In this document: one piece after another, positions 1-5,001 of the stretch | Layout of the letters: each line of letters opens with the position of its first letter | How positions within the stretch are numbered: the stretch's first letter is position 1 | Assembly (NCBI GenBank): GCA_027483745.1 | Contig: JAIXTZ010000006.1 | Coordinates: forward strand, 1 to 5,001 | Source of the DNA: Lysobacteraceae bacterium | GTDB lineage: Bacteria > Pseudomonadota > Gammaproteobacteria > Xanthomonadales > Xanthomonadaceae | Direction: 5' to 3' | DNA: 5,001 nt | Notes under the pieces: model-generated | The model's database searches: none | The model's input: the letters and a program-made list of their open reading frames with translations, nothing else | Told to the model about the DNA's origin: nothing | Translations under genes and position numbers: made by a program

Positions 1-190
1 CATGAGCATCCTCGGCAGCCTGATGGTGCTCTCGTACTTCCTGTTCTCCAACAAGCGCGATTCCGTCGGCGTGCTGCAGAACCTGTTCCCCACCTTCACC
101 GCCTGCTACAGCCTGTGGCTCGACATCCGCCACCGCGGCTGGGACAAGGCCGGTACCTCCGGCAGCGAGGAATCCCGTGCTAAGTCCTGA
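1..190 (+). CDS. LAB_N-domain membrane protein (3' end only)
   Basis: Partial gene: the frame is open at the left edge, so the ATG at position 2 is probably an internal Met and not the start. The roughly 62 visible residues hold a hydrophobic segment (SILGSLMVLSYFLF), then a short basic turn (SNKRDSVGVLQNLFP), a second hydrophobic stretch and a polar tail after LDIRHR. This pattern (LSYF, a K/R-D-SVG-L-NLFP block, then a Y-L-LD-RHR ending) is what I recognise from the C-terminal end of LAB_N proteins (lipid-A-disaccharide synthase N-terminal domain-like). These are small inner-membrane proteins often encoded beside an ArnT-type glycosyltransferase and a DPM1-like GT2 enzyme. Their biochemical role is not established; involvement in lipid-linked sugar transfer is inferred from neighbours. 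The last 14 nt overlap the next gene, which fits co-transcription and translational coupling. Confidence 0.72.
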   Translation, partial: MSILGSLMVLSYFLFSNKRDSVGVLQNLFPTFTACYSLWLDIRHRGWDKAGTSGSEESRAKS

Positions 191-1859
191 GCGCCGGCTG
201 GTCCTCTGGCTGCTCGCGGCCTTCCTCGTGCTGGGCGCTGGCATCGGCCTGCGCGAACCCACGCCGCCGGATGAACCCCGCTTCGCCATGATGGCGCAGG
301 ACATGGTGGACACCGGGCGCTGGCTGGTGCCGCATCGGGGCAGCGAGATCTACGCCGAGAAGCCCCCGGTCTTCATGTGGCTGCAGGCCAGCGCCTACGC
401 GCTGCTCGGCGATCTCCGCATCGCCTTCCTGCTGCCGTCGCTGCTCGCCGGCGTGCTGACCCTGTGGCTGGTGTACGACCTCGCGCGCCGTCTCTGGGGG
501 CCGCAGGCCGGCATGGCGGCCTCCGTCGCCCTGGCGCTGTGCCTGCAGTTCGGCTTGCAGGCGAAGCGCGCGCAGATCGACATGGTGGTCGTGGCCATGA
601 TCATCGGCGCCGTGTGGGCGATGGGGCGGCACCTGTTCCTCGGGCATTCGCCGCGCTGGCTGTGGTTTGGGGCGTTCCTCGCTGGCTTGGGCACGGTGAC
701 CAAGGGCGTCGGATTCCTGCCCCTGCTGATGCTGCTGCCAGCCTTCATCCTCGAACGTCGCGGCGCCCTGCCGCTGCCGGGCGCTCCGCGCGGCCCATGG
801 CGGGTGCGCTGGTCCCTGGTCCTGCCGGCCTTCGTCGCCGGTGCGGCGGTGTGGCTCGCGCCCTTGGCTGTCGAAGTGATGCGGGAGCAGAACCCCGAAC
901 TGAAGGCCTACGTCGCCGAGTTGCTGTTCAAGCAGACCGGCGAGCGTTACTTCAACGCCTGGCACCACATCAAACCGTGGTGGTACTACACGGAGGTCGT
1001 CGCCTCGCTCTGGCTGCCGGGGGTCCTGCTGCTGCCGTGGCTGGCGCCCGCATGGTGGCGACGCCTGCGCGAGGGTGATCCGGTCTTGATCACCCTGCTC
1101 GCCTGGGTGCTCATGGTGCTGCTGTTCTTCTCGGCCAGCCCGGGCAAGCGCGGGGTCTACATCTTCCCGGCGCTGCCGGTGCTGTGCATCGCCGCCGCGC
1201 CGTTCCTCGGCGCGCTGCTCGAGCGCGTCGGCGTTCGTCGCACGCTCTTCGGCTACGGCGCCGGCCTGGCCTCCTTGCTGGCCCTGGTCGGTCTGGCCGG
1301 ACTCGTGGGGCCGGACGCCTGGTCGGAGCGCCTCGCGGCGCCCCGCGGCATCGCGGACGGCGACGTCCACACCGTGTTCCTCGGCCTCTTCGTCGCCGGC
1401 GCCCTCGGCCTCGTCGCGGTGCTCGCCACACGCACGAAGCGCGTCGTTCCCGGCCTGCTCGCACTGACGGCCATCGTCTGGACCAGCTATGGCCTCGTGC
1501 TGCGTCCCGCGCTGGACCCGAGCAGCTCAGGCCGCACGGTGATGGCGGCGGTGGCGGCGCACCTTCCTGCGGACGCCGAGCTGGCCCTGGTCGCGTGGAC
1601 GGAACAAATGCGCCTGCAGGCGGACCGGCCGGTAGCCGATTTCGGGTTCAAGGCCTCCGGCAAAGCGCAGTGGCGTGCCGCGGTGCCGTGGCTCAGCGCG
1701 TCGCCCGGCGAGCGCTGGGTGCTCGCGCGCACCGACACCGTTCCCCGCTGCGTCGACGCCTCGCGCGTGGTCGACGTGGGCCTCGCGAATCGCCGCAGGT
1801 GGTCGCTGGTGCCTGGGGACGCTGTCGCACCGCGCTGTGGCGCCGGCGACCTCGACTGA
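177..1859 (+). CDS. ArnT/PMT-family (GT83-like) membrane glycosyltransferase
   Basis: A 560-aa polytopic inner-membrane protein, the usual length for ArnT-like enzymes, which move a sugar from a polyprenyl-phosphate carrier to lipid A or another envelope acceptor. Family hallmarks in order: DEPRFA at residues 32-37 in the first periplasmic loop, WLVP at 49-52, EKPP at 61-64, RAQID at 131-135, TKG at 175-177, an amphipathic ERYFNAWHHIKPWWYY block at 256-271, and SPGKRGVYIFPALP at 321-334. From memory, D32, R35, E61, K62 and D135 fall at a constant offset of 23 from D55, R58, E84, K85 and D158 of Cupriavidus metallidurans ArnT, so the catalytic face looks intact. About ten hydrophobic helices span residues 8-440, followed by a soluble C-terminal domain. 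The start is a GTG with a GAGGAA ribosome site at 167-172, overlapping the upstream gene by 14 nt. Sugar and acceptor cannot be read from sequence; true L-Ara4N transfer is possible but no arn genes are visible. Confidence 0.88.
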   Translation: MLSPERRLVLWLLAAFLVLGAGIGLREPTPPDEPRFAMMAQDMVDTGRWLVPHRGSEIYAEKPPVFMWLQASAYALLGDLRIAFLLPSLLAGVLTLWLVYDLARRLWGPQAGMAASVALALCLQFGLQAKRAQIDMVVVAMIIGAVWAMGRHLFLGHSPRWLWFGAFLAGLGTVTKGVGFLPLLMLLPAFILERRGALPLPGAPRGPWRVRWSLVLPAFVAGAAVWLAPLAVEVMREQNPELKAYVAELLFKQTGERYFNAWHHIKPWWYYTEVVASLWLPGVLLLPWLAPAWWRRLREGDPVLITLLAWVLMVLLFFSASPGKRGVYIFPALPVLCIAAAPFLGALLERVGVRRTLFGYGAGLASLLALVGLAGLVGPDAWSERLAAPRGIADGDVHTVFLGLFVAGALGLVAVLATRTKRVVPGLLALTAIVWTSYGLVLRPALDPSSSGRTVMAAVAAHLPADAELALVAWTEQMRLQADRPVADFGFKASGKAQWRAAVPWLSASPGERWVLARTDTVPRCVDASRVVDVGLANRRRWSLVPGDAVAPRCGAGDLD

Positions 1860-1879
1860 GCCACGTGCCCCTGAACGCA

Positions 1880-1907
1880 GAAAGGCCGCGGCGAACCGCG
1901 GCCTTTC
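1880..1907. terminator. Bidirectional hairpin terminator between convergent genes
   Basis: A perfect inverted repeat with arms GAAAGGCCGCGG (1880-1891) and CCGCGGCCTTTC (1896-1907) around a 4-nt CGAA loop (TTCG read on the minus strand). It lies 20 nt past the glycosyltransferase stop and 21 nt past the FKBP stop, so one structure can end both converging transcripts. Neither side has a long T-run beyond the stem; the only U-tract is the CCTTTC at the base of each 3' arm. Placement and symmetry make terminator the best reading. Efficiency and Rho-independence are inferred. Confidence 0.85.
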
Positions 1908-1928
1908 CATGACAGCGCGGCGAGCGGC

Positions 1929-2711
1929 TTACTGAGCCGGCGTCGCGGCGTCCTGTTTCACGATCTCAAGCAGCTCGACTTCGAACTTCAGCGTGGCGTT
2001 CGGCGGGATGTCCTGGCCGGCACCGTTCGGACCGTAGGCCAGCGCGGCCGGGATCCAGAAGACGTACTTGGCCCCCACCGGCATCAGCTGCACGCCTTCG
2101 GTCCAGCCCGGGATCACGCCGGCCAGCGGGAAGGTGGCGGGCTCGTTGCGGGCGTAGGAGCTGTCGAACTCCTTGCCGTCGAGCAGCGTGCCGCGGTAGT
2201 GCACCTTCACCGTATCGGCCGCCGTCGGCTTGGCGCCGGCACCGGCGCGCACGACCTGGAACTGCAGGCCGCTCTCCGTCGTGCGGACGCCGGCCTTGGT
2301 TTTGTTCGAGGCCAGGAAGGCTTCGCCTTCGGCGAGGTTCTTCGCGCCCTGCTCGGCGATCAGCGCCGCCTGCTTGCGCTGCATGAACTGGCCGAACGCC
2401 ATGCCCACTTCCTGCGCCTGCGCATCGGTCATCAGCTTGCCTTCGCCCGAGAGGCCGGCTTCGATGGCCTTGGCGAGCGTCGCCGGGTCCACGTAGTCCT
2501 TCACCTGCTGGAGGCTGGTGGCCATCTGCAGGCCGATCATGTAGCTGATCTTCTCGTTGTCGGTGCGCAGGCCCTCAACGGCCGGCAGCTGCAGCGTGGC
2601 CGGCGCTTCGGCGGGGGCCGGGGCGGCGGTCGGGTTCTGGGCGAAGGCCGGCGCGGCGTAGACGCAGAGGCCCAAGAGGGCGGTGGCGGCCAGGGAACGG
2701 GTGTTCAGCAT
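1929..2711 (-). CDS. Exported FKBP-type peptidyl-prolyl cis-trans isomerase (FkpA/Mip-like)
   Basis: 260 aa, the usual size for periplasmic two-domain FKBPs that catalyse prolyl isomerisation and act as chaperones during envelope protein folding. Residues 1-24 form a Sec signal peptide (basic start, hydrophobic core, AFA before Q25); no proper lipobox precedes C16, so a soluble periplasmic protein is expected. Residues about 44-140 are the helical FKBP_N dimerisation domain (begins near DNEKISYMIGLQM). Residues about 148-252 are the FKBP_C catalytic domain, with all main pocket residues of the family: Y172, F182, D183, V199-I200, W203, Y226 and F243. The frame stays open far upstream, but the ATG at 2711 is chosen because it gives the signal peptide exactly at the N-terminus. 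Its ribosome site is GGAG (2723-2726) with a rather long 11-nt spacing. It lies 88 nt downstream of the DUF3429 gene and probably has its own promoter. Confidence 0.93.
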   Translation of the reverse strand: MLNTRSLAATALLGLCVYAAPAFAQNPTAAPAPAEAPATLQLPAVEGLRTDNEKISYMIGLQMATSLQQVKDYVDPATLAKAIEAGLSGEGKLMTDAQAQEVGMAFGQFMQRKQAALIAEQGAKNLAEGEAFLASNKTKAGVRTTESGLQFQVVRAGAGAKPTAADTVKVHYRGTLLDGKEFDSSYARNEPATFPLAGVIPGWTEGVQLMPVGAKYVFWIPAALAYGPNGAGQDIPPNATLKFEVELLEIVKQDAATPAQ

Positions 2712-2762
2712 GGGGGAACGGACTCCATCAGTCGGAACCGCCACGGACGCGGCGGGCCGCCG

Positions 2763-2791
2763 ATTGTGGCCCCGACGGCGGGCTTCGGCAA
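2763..2791 (-). promoter_or_regulatory. Possible sigma-70 promoter for the FKBP gene
   Basis: Read on the minus strand there is TTGCCG (2791-2786), a 17-nt spacer, then CACAAT (2768-2763): four of six consensus matches in each hexamer with ideal spacing. It lies in the gap after the DUF3429 stop and would give a 5' leader of about 45 nt before the FKBP start. Moderate hexamer matches in GC-rich DNA can arise by chance. Confidence 0.35.
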
Positions 2792-2799
2792 TGCGCCGC

Positions 2800-3321
2800 T
2801 CAGGCCGGGGCAAGCCCGCCGCCGAAGTGCCAGCACAGCCCCATCGCCACCCCGTGGGCAGCGATGGCCGCGGCGGAGATCTGCCGCCGAAGCTGGCGGA
2901 AGCCCGGCGTGGCGGGCAAGGCGTCGGCCCGGGTGTCGAACCAAAGCGCCAGCCCGAAGCCGGCGGCAAGCGCGGCGAGGGCGTAGAAGGCGGGCAGAAA
3001 CAGCGCCGGGAAGGCCCACAGACTGGGCAACACCGACAGCACGTAGCCCGGCGCACCACCGCCGGCACTCATCACGCGCCCCCAGCGCACGCCGCCGAGG
3101 AAGCTGAGGATCACCGCCGAGTAAACGAGAAAAGCCTTGCTGCCAATCGACAAGGCGCGAGCCTCGTCGAGCACGCCGCCCGCCGCCCACGCCGCGATCG
3201 CCGCGAGGAAGGGCAGAAGACCGGCCCACGTCAACCACACCGCGGCGCGCGGCAGCGGCGGCTGGTACAGGTCCTGTACCGTCATGTACTCCCGACGCGC
3301 CTCGCGCTCCAATCCGCTCAT
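2800..3321 (-). CDS. DUF3429 family multi-pass inner-membrane protein
   Basis: 173 aa from the ATG at 3321. After a charged N-terminus come about five hydrophobic segments: residues about 26-48, 60-79, 91-112, 113-127 and 148-165. The block VYSAVILSFLGGVRWG (66-81) is the signature I associate with DUF3429, a family of small bacterial membrane proteins of unknown function; the start of the core, PPLPRAAVWLTWAGLLPF, also fits. Two starts are possible. ATG 3321 has AGAAGG (3327-3332) at 5 nt and G/C-rich third positions in the extra codons, so it is preferred. ATG 3285 (161 aa, MTVQDLYQ) has GGGAG at only 3 nt and would remove the overlap with the divergent gene. Nothing in the sequence points to a specific role. 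It precedes the FKBP gene on the same strand but the 88-nt gap argues against tight coupling. Confidence 0.78.
   Translation of the reverse strand: MSGLEREARREYMTVQDLYQPPLPRAAVWLTWAGLLPFLAAIAAWAAGGVLDEARALSIGSKAFLVYSAVILSFLGGVRWGRVMSAGGGAPGYVLSVLPSLWAFPALFLPAFYALAALAAGFGLALWFDTRADALPATPGFRQLRRQISAAAIAAHGVAMGLCWHFGGGLAPA
3264..3280. repeat. 17-bp perfect palindrome near the divergent gene starts
   Basis: GGTACAGG (3264-3271), one central T, then CCTGTACC (3273-3280): 8-bp arms with no mismatch. It lies in the 5' part of the DUF3429 coding sequence (codons for VQDLY) and 39 nt upstream of the NTF2-like start. It could be an operator for the NTF2-like gene or a hairpin early in the DUF3429 mRNA. 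No known regulator site is recognised, and codon constraints could produce it by chance. Confidence 0.35.
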
Positions 3322-3820
3322 GGACACCTTCTCAGCCTTGGACGCGGCACGACGCCGCCATTCGCATCCTCCCGCAGCTGGCAGCGACGCGGAAGCCCGC
3401 GCCCTCGATGCCTTCGCGGCGTTTTTCTCCAGCTTTGCGGCCGACCGCATCGAGCGCCTGCTGCCCGCGACCTATGCCGAGGACGTCTGGTTCAACGACA
3501 CGCTGAAGACCGTTGTCGGCCGAGAGGCTCTCGCGCACTACCTGCGCGAAAGCGCCGAGGCGGTCGAACACTGCCGCGTCGACATCATCGACAGCACGCG
3601 CAATCCCGAAGGCGAATACCTGTTGCGCTGGCGCATGGTGATCCGCTTCAAGCGCTTCAAGAAGGGCCAGGACACCGAGAGCATCGGCCTCTCGCACCTG
3701 CGTTTCGACGCGCAAGGCCGCGTCGTTTACCACCAGGACTGCTGGAATGCGGCGGAGGGACTCTTCCGCCACATCCCCGTGCTGGGCTGGATGATCGAAG
3801 CCGTGCTGAAGCGCGTCTGA
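3320..3820 (+). CDS. NTF2/SnoaL-like fold protein of unknown substrate
   Basis: 166 aa. Residues about 28-145 read as a cone-shaped NTF2-like domain: opening helices (RALDAFAAFFSSFAADRIERL), YAEDVWFNDTLKTVVGREAL (52-71) with the aromatic/acidic pattern after the first helices, then beta strands (CRVDIIDS, GEYLLRWRMVIRFKRF, TESIGLSHLRFDAQGRVVYHQD). The tail CWNAAEGLFRHIPVLG resembles the YWDAAE-LPLLG endings I recall in SnoaL-like proteins of gammaproteobacteria, often found near photolyase or lipid-modifying genes; no such neighbours are visible here. No catalytic set can be assigned, so ligand and reaction are unknown. The start is uncertain: ATG 3320 has no ribosome site, and ATG 3284 and TTG 3338 are alternatives. 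Third-position G/C is lower in the first 29 codons, which may be poorly conserved or untranslated. Convergent with the peroxidase gene, 4 nt between the stop codons. Confidence 0.8.
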   Translation: MDTFSALDAARRRHSHPPAAGSDAEARALDAFAAFFSSFAADRIERLLPATYAEDVWFNDTLKTVVGREALAHYLRESAEAVEHCRVDIIDSTRNPEGEYLLRWRMVIRFKRFKKGQDTESIGLSHLRFDAQGRVVYHQDCWNAAEGLFRHIPVLGWMIEAVLKRV

Positions 3821-3824
3821 GCCC

Positions 3825-4385
3825 TCAGGGCTTCGGCGCGGCGAGGGCTTTCTCGATCGCTTCCACCAGCTCCGGCGCATCCGGCTTGGTGCGGCTGCCG
3901 AAACTCGCGACCACCGTGCCGTCGCGGCCGATCAAGTACTTGTGGAAGTTCCAACCGGGTTGGTCACCGGTGGCCGCCGCCAATTCGCGGTAGAACGGCG
4001 TGGCTTCCGAACCGCGCACGACGACCTTCTCGAACATCGGGAACTTCACGCCGTAAGTCAGCGTGCAGAATTCCTGGATCTCCGCTTCGCTGCCCGGCTC
4101 CTGGCCCATGAAGTCGTTCGACGGAAAGCCAAGCACCGCGAACCCCTGCGGCGAATACGTCTGGTGCAGCGCCTCGAGGCCCTCGTACTGCGGGGTGAAG
4201 CCGCACTTGCTCGCGGTGTTGACCACCAGCAGCACCTGCCCCGCATAAGCCTGCGAGAGCTTCACCCGCTCCTGTCCGGCCAGCCGGCGGAACTCGTGGT
4301 CCAGCACGCCCGCCTGGGCGTCGGCGGCGTATCCGCCCGCACCCAGTCCGACCACCAGCGCCAGGGCGCCAATCCAAGCCTTCAT
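3825..4385 (-). CDS. Exported glutathione peroxidase family protein (Cys type)
   Basis: 186 aa. Residues 1-25 form a Sec signal peptide (MKAWIG, hydrophobic core, AQA before G26), so a periplasmic location is predicted. The mature part is a complete thioredoxin-fold GPx domain. The catalytic tetrad is visible: C61 in NTASKCGFTPQYEGL, Q95 in the GQEPG motif (94-98), and W145-N146 in WNFHKYL. The enzyme is Cys-based, as there is no in-frame selenocysteine codon. C107, in EFCTLTYGVKFPMF (106-119), is the usual second cysteine of this region. The common FPCNQF-type motif reads FPSNDFMG here, a mild variant. Such enzymes reduce hydrogen or lipid peroxides, many using thioredoxin instead of glutathione; the periplasmic reductant is unknown. 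The ATG at 4385 is certain: it has GAGGAGA (4391-4397) at good spacing and starts the signal peptide. The open frame upstream of it is not coding. Confidence 0.93.
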   Translation of the reverse strand: MKAWIGALALVVGLGAGGYAADAQAGVLDHEFRRLAGQERVKLSQAYAGQVLLVVNTASKCGFTPQYEGLEALHQTYSPQGFAVLGFPSNDFMGQEPGSEAEIQEFCTLTYGVKFPMFEKVVVRGSEATPFYRELAAATGDQPGWNFHKYLIGRDGTVVASFGSRTKPDAPELVEAIEKALAAPKP

Positions 4386-4458
4386 TGCCTTCTCCTCAGT
4401 GGAACCGGCGCGCTGCCGGTCTATGCCATCAGTTTGCTCATTTCCTGTGTGCGGGGCG

Positions 4459-4486
4459 TTGACTGGCAAAAAACTGGTGTTATAGT
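4459..4486 (+). promoter_or_regulatory. Sigma-70 promoter of the small-protein/GntR operon
   Basis: TTGACT (4459-4464) and TATAGT (4481-4486), five of six consensus matches each, separated by 16 nt in an A/T-rich stretch that stands out from its GC-rich surroundings. The expected start of transcription is near 4492-4494, giving a leader of about 34 nt. The -10 hexamer lies entirely inside the palindrome at 4476-4499, so a protein bound there would block RNA polymerase. Confidence 0.75.
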
Positions 4487-4499
4487 TACCTACAACACC
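4476..4499. promoter_or_regulatory. Operator-like palindrome, GGTG-N16-CACC, probable GntR/YtrA site
   Basis: A 24-bp inverted repeat with outer arms GGTGTT (4476-4481) and AACACC (4494-4499); 10 of the 12 symmetric positions pair, with mismatches only at positions 7 and 11 of each half. GGTG and CACC are exactly 16 nt apart. I recall this GGTG-N16-CACC pattern as the reported binding motif of the YtrA regulator of Xanthomonas citri. A YtrA-type gene begins 264 nt downstream in the same operon, so autorepression is the natural inference. It covers the -10 and the probable transcription start. Confidence 0.72.
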
Positions 4500-4515
4500 A
4501 CCCACCCACCTCACT

Positions 4516-4520
4516 GAGGT
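4516..4520 (+). promoter_or_regulatory. Ribosome binding site of the 78-aa gene
   Basis: GAGGT, 6 nt before the ATG at 4527. This supports translation of the small gene from that start. Confidence 0.6.
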
Positions 4521-4526
4521 CCCGCC

Positions 4527-4763
4527 ATGAACACCCGCCTCCGCAACAGCCTGAGCGCCCTGGTCCTCGCCGCCGGCGTGACCTCGCTCGGCTACGCCTT
4601 GGGTGAACCGCCCCGCCCGGGCAGCCTGGCCGCCGACGCCAGCCAGCAGGCCGTCGCCGCCATCGCGCAGGCCGACGCCCGCGACGGCCAGAGCCGTGCG
4701 CGCTCTCCGCACGCGATGCCTTTCTTCTCGTTCGGGAAGCGCGCCAGCGTGGGAGCCCCCTGA
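4527..4763 (+). CDS. Small exported or membrane-anchored hypothetical protein
   Basis: 78 aa, family not recognised. The N-terminus has basic residues (NTRLR) followed by a hydrophobic run (LSALVLAAGVTSLGYALG, residues 9-26), which fits a signal peptide or a single membrane anchor. The rest is an Ala/Gln/Asp-rich linker (residues 33-60) and a short aromatic patch, HAMPFFSFGKR (62-72), near the C-terminus, which is the part most likely to be functional. It has no cysteine, so it is not a lipoprotein. It is the first gene after the promoter and operator, has a GAGGT ribosome site, and its TGA overlaps the GntR ATG by one base (TGATG, 4761-4765), so it is very probably translated and coupled to the regulator. 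A role as signal sensor, accessory peptide or substrate of the regulated system is conceivable but not shown. Confidence 0.72.
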   Translation: MNTRLRNSLSALVLAAGVTSLGYALGEPPRPGSLAADASQQAVAAIAQADARDGQSRARSPHAMPFFSFGKRASVGAP

Positions 4764-5001
4764 TGAGCATCACCTGGAGTGACAGCACGCCGATCTACCG
4801 GCAGCTCAAGGAGCGCGTCGTCGCGATGGTGCTCGACGGCGAGCTGAAGGAGGGGGATGCCCTGCCTTCGGTGCGCCAGGTCGCCGCCGACTACCAGCTC
4901 AATCCGATCACCGTGTCACGCGCCTATCAGGAACTGGCCGACGAGGCCTTGGTGGAAAAACGAAGGGGACTGGGGATGTACGTCATCGATGGAGCTCGGG
5001 A
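4763..5001 (+). CDS. YtrA-subfamily GntR transcriptional regulator (5' part)
   Basis: 79 codons are visible and the gene continues past the right edge. Residues about 9-75 are a complete GntR winged helix-turn-helix DNA-binding domain: PIYRQLKERVV (10-20), DGELKEGDALPSVRQVAADY (25-44), recognition helix NPITVSRAYQEL (47-58), and wing LVEKRRGLGMYV (63-74). The sequence N-P-I-T-V-S/N-R-A-Y-Q-E-L together with the GLGMYV wing is typical of the YtrA subfamily, whose effector part is a short helical dimerisation tail. YtrA regulators usually repress a linked ABC transporter operon that includes their own gene. The ATG at 4763 overlaps the upstream stop and has GGGAG (4751-4755) 7 nt before it. The palindrome at 4476-4499 is its likely binding site. 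The C-terminal part, and so the subfamily assignment, cannot be confirmed from this window. Confidence 0.9.
   Translation, partial: MSITWSDSTPIYRQLKERVVAMVLDGELKEGDALPSVRQVAADYQLNPITVSRAYQELADEALVEKRRGLGMYVIDGAR

Follow-up and report, generated by a model that had tools for sequence, protein, structure and literature searches.

A conserved palindrome on the promoter of a YtrA-type regulator operon in Lysobacteraceae, with a closely similar site at an RND efflux operon

We analyzed a window of 5,001 nucleotides, positions 1 to 5,001 (forward strand) of contig JAIXTZ010000006.1 from a Lysobacteraceae bacterium assembly (GCA_027483745.1). Among the loci compared, its DNA is closest to that of two metagenome assemblies labeled Silanimonas (L001 and L002, 88% over 5 kb). 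The features considered here lie toward the end of the window:

4459-4464, + strand: -35 hexamer TTGACT, by direct reading.
4476-4499, + strand: predicted YtrA dimer operator, the 24-bp near-palindrome GGTGTTATAGTTACCTACAACACC, from symmetry and conservation in relatives.
4481-4486, + strand: -10 hexamer TATAGT, within the left half of the palindrome, by direct reading.
4527-4763, + strand: open reading frame for a small protein of 78 amino acids with a hydrophobic N-terminal stretch; its stop overlaps the start of the regulator gene (TGATG).
4716-4733, + strand: coding sequence of the small-protein motif MPFFSF, from the motif pattern.
4763-5001, + strand: first 79 residues of a predicted YtrA-type GntR regulator (PF00392, E 1.6e-14), whose gene runs past the window end.

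Rereading of the window sequence bore out the layout described in a reading made from the letters alone (the sequence-only reading): TTGACT and TATAGT are separated by a spacer of 16 bases, and the -10 hexamer lies wholly inside GGTGTTATAGTTACCTACAACACC, in which 10 of 12 pairs are symmetric and the GGTG and CACC ends stand 16 nucleotides apart. Symmetry by itself is weak evidence against chance, as palindromes this good are expected about once per window. The window contains four 24-mers in which 10 or more of 12 pairs are symmetric (0.88 expected), any such 24-mer appeared in 21 of 5,000 shuffles of the stretch 4386-4526, and 300 whole-window shuffles produced two palindromes that had both this degree of symmetry and the GGTG and CACC ends. 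The pattern GGTG-N16-CACC occurs twice in the window (0.16 expected; a count of 2 was reached in 4 of 200 shuffles); the second copy, at 1808-1831, is not A/T-rich and falls within a long open reading frame (177-1859).

A chance origin is judged out by conservation, which is the decisive point. Relatives were taken as the best 80 of at least 483 loci with a gene for a closely related regulator, in a collection with one genome per bacterial or archaeal species. These best 80 include Silanimonas, Lysobacter, Luteimonas, Arenimonas, Pseudoxanthomonas, and Thermomonas, along with the more distant genera Janthinobacterium, Duganella, Rugamonas, and Massilia. A locus with 213 bases of upstream sequence (L038) was dropped, leaving 79, and the column table also omits L013, leaving 78. 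The sequence-only reading had staked its proposal on the palindrome being kept by relatives, and among loci that keep the regulator it is conserved, at the same promoter position, in 78 of 79 (best 80 of at least 483). In these 78 of 79, RGTGTTATAGTTNNNTACAACACC lies no more than 800 bp upstream of the regulator. GGTGTTATAGTTNNNTACAACACC is likewise found in 78 of the 79 at up to four mismatches (none in 33, one in 33, two in 10, and four in 2, counted on the GGTG form), and its first G is often A in the relatives' copies. The sole failure among these 79 is L013, which retains the regulator and whose best upstream site has 7 mismatches.

The promoter boxes are conserved as well. Across the 78 aligned relatives (from the best 80 of at least 483), the first three -35 positions are T in 78, T in 74, and G in 76, with the best -35-like hexamer at offset -17 in 73 and at -18 in 5, and every position of TATAGT is kept in 75 to 78. 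The right half of the palindrome, TACAACACC, lies downstream of the -10 and is kept in 75 to 78 of the same 78 at each position, which equals the conservation of the left half, and the three central bases are variable. Because the right half sits outside the -10 and -35 boxes and yet is equally conserved, more is being preserved than a promoter alone would need.

The 79 regulator residues encoded in the window match the GntR winged helix-turn-helix domain PF00392, as does the full-length, near-identical L001 protein (E 5.9e-14). Counted from the start of the match, regulators in the 80 relatives (best 80 of at least 483) are 116 to 126 amino acids long. The structure model of the L001 regulator (pLDDT 88.8) places helices at residues 78-104 and 109-113 after the winged helix-turn-helix, and its predicted fold agrees with 2du9, 2ek5, and 6sbs along most of the chain. 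Judged by the length and predicted fold of its relatives, the window regulator is of the YtrA type; the features of that subfamily found here are the GntR winged helix-turn-helix, a very short chain, a small helical C-terminal part, and a YtrA-type predicted fold, together with a palindromic operator of about 24 bp and linked ABC transporter genes in relatives. PmtR is among the best two named matches of the regulator, which scores 55.5 bits against the NCBIfam equivalog model NF047563, far below the cut-off of 200, and so is not a member of that family.

The sequence-only reading placed the promoter upstream of a gene pair ending in the regulator. The small open reading frame followed by the GntR gene stands, but the unit is longer: in relatives, the order is small protein, YtrA, ABC ATPase, and permease. 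The ATPase gene directly follows the regulator in all 80 loci and the permease comes next in 79 of the 80 (best 80 of at least 483), which corresponds to DNA beyond the window end. The best named match of the ATPase is PmtA, at a score far below the NCBIfam cut-off. In L002, the permease is followed by genes for DUF4097 and DUF2884 proteins, matches to which were found in 22 and 40, respectively, of the 80 loci (best 80 of at least 483).

The first gene of the unit encodes a member of a conserved small-protein family that, in the matches listed, carries no annotation beyond hypothetical or similar terms. At most family loci, the N-terminal stretch is hydrophobic, the linker after it varies, and the C-terminal segment is MP[YF][FY]SF. 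The small protein has no Pfam or NCBIfam match, and its structure model was of low confidence (mean pLDDT 66.2, pTM 0.28) and was not used. ATG-started open reading frames of at least 60 amino acids were present at 60 of 79 loci, 57 of them with the motif, and a search in all frames recovered the motif pattern at 60 of 80 loci (both from the best 80 of at least 483) and in the window; because the pattern itself requires P and S, finding them constant in those 61 sequences carries no weight. P and S are also invariant in a 33-row alignment of small proteins, whose rows were chosen mostly for the motif and omit L013 and L054, where the open reading frames are without it. The motif is encoded with synonymous codons (three for P, five for S, and two each for Y and F), and this use of several codons per fixed residue argues for selection on the protein and rules out the MPYFSF stretch as a DNA element.

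A profile search returned 685 proteins at E up to 0.001, and the 120 of these that were listed are named hypothetical, uncharacterized, or secreted protein, with a Pfam domain in none. The small protein was found in 83 of 99 family genomes and adjoins the regulator in all 68 that could be compared, the remaining 15 of the 83 having no listed regulator position. In the class sample, it was found in 3 of 274 genomes, all three of which also belong to the family sample. The term MPYFSF had no match in the literature searched. In Janthinobacterium, Duganella, Rugamonas, and their relatives, the operator lies 45 to 104 bp before the regulator and the small gene was not found there. Eight loci (L010, L014, L015, L047, L073, L074, L076, and L078) have the operator 45 to 63 bp before the regulator with no small gene found between them, and in the Silanimonas-labeled L008 the distance is 100 bp, again with no small gene found between. 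Since several loci keep the operator without the small gene, the switch itself can do without that gene.

The sequence-only reading also expected other copies of GGTG-N16-CACC to mark the regulon of the regulator, an expectation that did not hold: scans of two Silanimonas genomes gave 109 and 117 matches, no more than the 112 and 134 obtained with the reversed pattern and so at background. This bare pattern was set aside in favor of an extended operator pattern, GTGTTRTA-N6-TAYAACAC, with the pattern reversed as the control, and the regulon was read in relatives of the window genome. The extended operator is far more specific: it is present in 183 of 198 sampled family genomes, in exactly one copy in 171, and the reversed control gave 0 matches.

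A search for the regulator (E up to 1e-20) succeeded in 191 of the same 198 genomes. Among the 7 genomes without it, the exact operator is absent in 6 and present in G111, at 265-286 of a contig, near the edge, where the neighboring gene may be cut off. Co-occurrence of regulator and operator was scored per genome, not per locus, with a Fisher test on the resulting table; in at least one genome, G089, the exact match is at the second target described below, so that co-occurrence per genome does not always refer to the primary site. Sites that differ from the pattern at one position occur in the regulator-less genomes G009, G016 (two sites), and G185, and some of these sites have the second-target form. 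Nine genomes have the regulator without an exact operator. One of these, G001, has a site with a single mismatch, and in G038, G052, G061, G136, and G168 the regulator is preceded by imperfect sites with weight-matrix scores of 20 to 38; placement of sites relative to the regulator thus covers 6 of the 9, leaving out G073, G082, and G176. Loosening the pattern to three mismatches brought the scan near background in several genomes (for example, 4 matches versus 6 for the control in G073, and 7 versus 8 in G082) and was abandoned; the case for second sites found in this way therefore comes from the weight matrix and from the neighbor genes that recur beside them.

In the class sample, 16 loci have an exact operator, 8 of them beside an ABC ATPase gene (two from family genomes) and 3 beside an adaptor gene. 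Five genomes represented among these loci (L147-L162), G219, G368, G382, G242, and G461, carry two or three exact copies apiece, of which some adjoin genes for an ABC ATPase or an adaptor, which suggests wider regulons there.

Extra operator-like copies were seen in 11 loci, in 8 of which they precede genes for a periplasmic adaptor and an RND pump beside cytochrome c genes; those in L108, L113, and L115 are not before such a unit. The sites in L108 and L115 (genomes G101 and G127), at about position 1500, have two mismatches and lie beside a similar stretch, GTGACTAAAGTCAC..GCGCCGAAGCGA, and no adaptor, pump, or ABC query match was found around them. The adaptor passes the RND_mfp (TIGR01730) cut-off, and the best models for the pump are RND permeases, below their cut-offs. 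An adaptor match was present in 195 genomes. For 90 family genomes among them (the 30 best scoring, with loci, and 60 chosen from the list of matches), the sequence before the adaptor gene, no longer than 510 bases for L163-L192 and 640 bases for L193-L252, was scored with a weight matrix derived from 38 different primary sites, with shuffles of single bases for comparison. All 90 genomes scored above the 99th percentile of 1,800 shuffles, and 81 of the 90 also outscored the top shuffle (7.4) as well as the highest of 1,295 real control windows (11.0), which the other nine did not; the score in the two Silanimonas assemblies L172 and L173 is 16.7. A common form of the site is GGTGTTGTA-N6-TATATCACC. 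The YtrA regulator thus probably also controls the RND efflux operon through a site closely similar in sequence to its own, and the description of the switch as self-contained in the sequence-only reading gives way to one in which a like palindrome precedes a second operon (81 of 90 genomes above every control).

The RND-operon palindrome is kept in G009, G025, G043, and G172, four genomes for which the search found no regulator; this may reflect assembly gaps or a second reader of the site. Regulator-less genomes do not make a clean negative control here, because the RND site is kept and the assemblies may be incomplete. Many of the 60 genomes L193-L252 share a further motif, approximately CACCATGACCTTCGGCGCATGG, shortly upstream of the RND palindrome.

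We consider it highly likely that 4476-4499 is the operator of the regulator encoded at 4763, through which it would repress its own small protein-ytrA-ABC unit; the RND operon is probably controlled too, through the site before it. Autorepression is the best reading of a conserved palindrome on this promoter because the palindrome is conserved, the regulator is YtrA type, and the motif is published for Xanthomonas citri YtrA; binding and repression are what we infer from this sequence and its conservation, the operon neighbors, the fold class, and the second site. A YtrA dimer would contact the half-site GGTGTTRTA and a mirror copy of it, separated by about two helical turns, and would thus cover the -10 and probably the predicted start point, shutting out RNA polymerase. 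The regulator would thereby hold down its own transcription and that of the small membrane or secreted protein and the ABC-2-type exporter. A signal that releases it would turn on the whole unit, probably with the RND pump, and by analogy with Bacillus subtilis YtrA and Staphylococcus aureus PmtR this signal may be envelope or peptide stress. One further proposal, a PmtR-like export circuit responding to a peptide, in which the small protein is a precursor with a hydrophobic leading part and a conserved C-terminal MPYFSF segment and serves both as cargo of the ABC exporter and, directly or via envelope stress, as the signal that lifts YtrA from both operators, is speculative, and we think it unlikely to be right.

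Other explanations bear on parts of this reading. The conserved stretch could be a strong promoter and nothing else, the palindrome being incidental to its boxes, and the near invariance of the -35 TTG and of the TATAGT box in relatives would fit that. We give this very little chance, given that the right half TACAACACC is as constant as noted above around three varying central bases and that a closely similar palindrome recurs at the RND operon. Nor need a regulator bound at this position act as a simple block: it could be an activator or a dual switch. The X. campestris regulator HpaR1 offers the example, since over the -10 and start point of gumB it is reported to aid RNA polymerase binding (PMC4730234). 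The gumB footprint given there is 31 nucleotides with inverted repeats 1 bp apart, that on engXCA is 25 nucleotides, and transcription is raised in both cases; the footprints are not described there as GGTG-N16-CACC, so repression everywhere cannot be assumed. The same source states, however, that HpaR1 autorepresses its own expression, and YtrASa and PmtR are described as repressing their own operons from sites over the start (PMC5080381 for PmtR), so that at the window's site we judge activation or dual control to be improbable.

Autorepression by the regulator leaves room for a different protein at the RND operon, in which case the YtrA regulon would be a single operon. Consistent with a separate reader are the four genomes that keep the RND site without a regulator having been found, the RND-form site one mismatch from the pattern in G185, the frequent variant half TATATCACC peculiar to this site, and the extra conserved motif beside it. 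The two sites nevertheless agree in length, in their GGTG and CACC ends, and in the core; they are near-identical in L171, L194, L196, and L218; and the regulator-less genomes, for which completeness is not given, may be incomplete assemblies. A separate reader therefore seems to us rather unlikely, and control of both operons by YtrA remains our preferred reading.

The operator and the type of switch were already known, and the finding is mainly a clean confirmation of them. It provides a sharp operator consensus, with about one copy per genome in the family, whereas the short motif as published is no commoner than background. The features that merit follow-up are the likely two-target regulon and the conserved small protein: an RND efflux operon as the second target fits a role in envelope defense, the small protein is an obvious candidate for the molecule on which the ABC exporter or the regulator acts, and a search for what YtrA-type regulators sense could start at this small-protein family.

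The YtrA of B. subtilis belongs with an ABC transporter operon. It is described as the founding member of the subfamily and as linked to cell-envelope stress, and it differs from the system described here in having inverted repeats separated by 13 bp (quoted in PMC4730234). The YtrA of Sulfolobus acidocaldarius is described as having a very small regulon with two targets, its own operon and one membrane-protein locus, as is likely here, with a 14-bp core motif rather than 24 bp and an archaeal promoter. The nearest likeness in DNA pattern is to X. citri YtrA and X. campestris HpaR1, which a review pairs as "HpaR1/YtrA": these are YtrA-type GntR regulators, and GGTG-N16-CACC is quoted as the X. 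citri YtrA motif in PMC6746942, where YtrA motifs are given as typically 24 bp. The sequence-only reading had named this pattern as that of Xanthomonas YtrA, and the quoted motif agrees; in the literature searched, GGTG-N16-CACC appears in a single paper. Unlike that motif, the useful one here is longer (GTGTTRTA-N6-TAYAACAC), the short form being at background in the two Silanimonas genomes. The closest worked-out mechanism that we found is that of S. aureus PmtR, a YtrA-type regulator described as heading an ABC exporter operon (pmtABCD), binding over its own start site, repressing, and being released by exported peptides (PMC5080381). As there, a predicted YtrA-type repressor gene lies ahead of ABC exporter genes with which it is probably cotranscribed, and its predicted site lies over the start; unlike pmtR-pmtABCD, the unit described here has a small-protein gene preceding the regulator, and its proteins score far below the PmtR and PmtA NCBIfam cut-offs.
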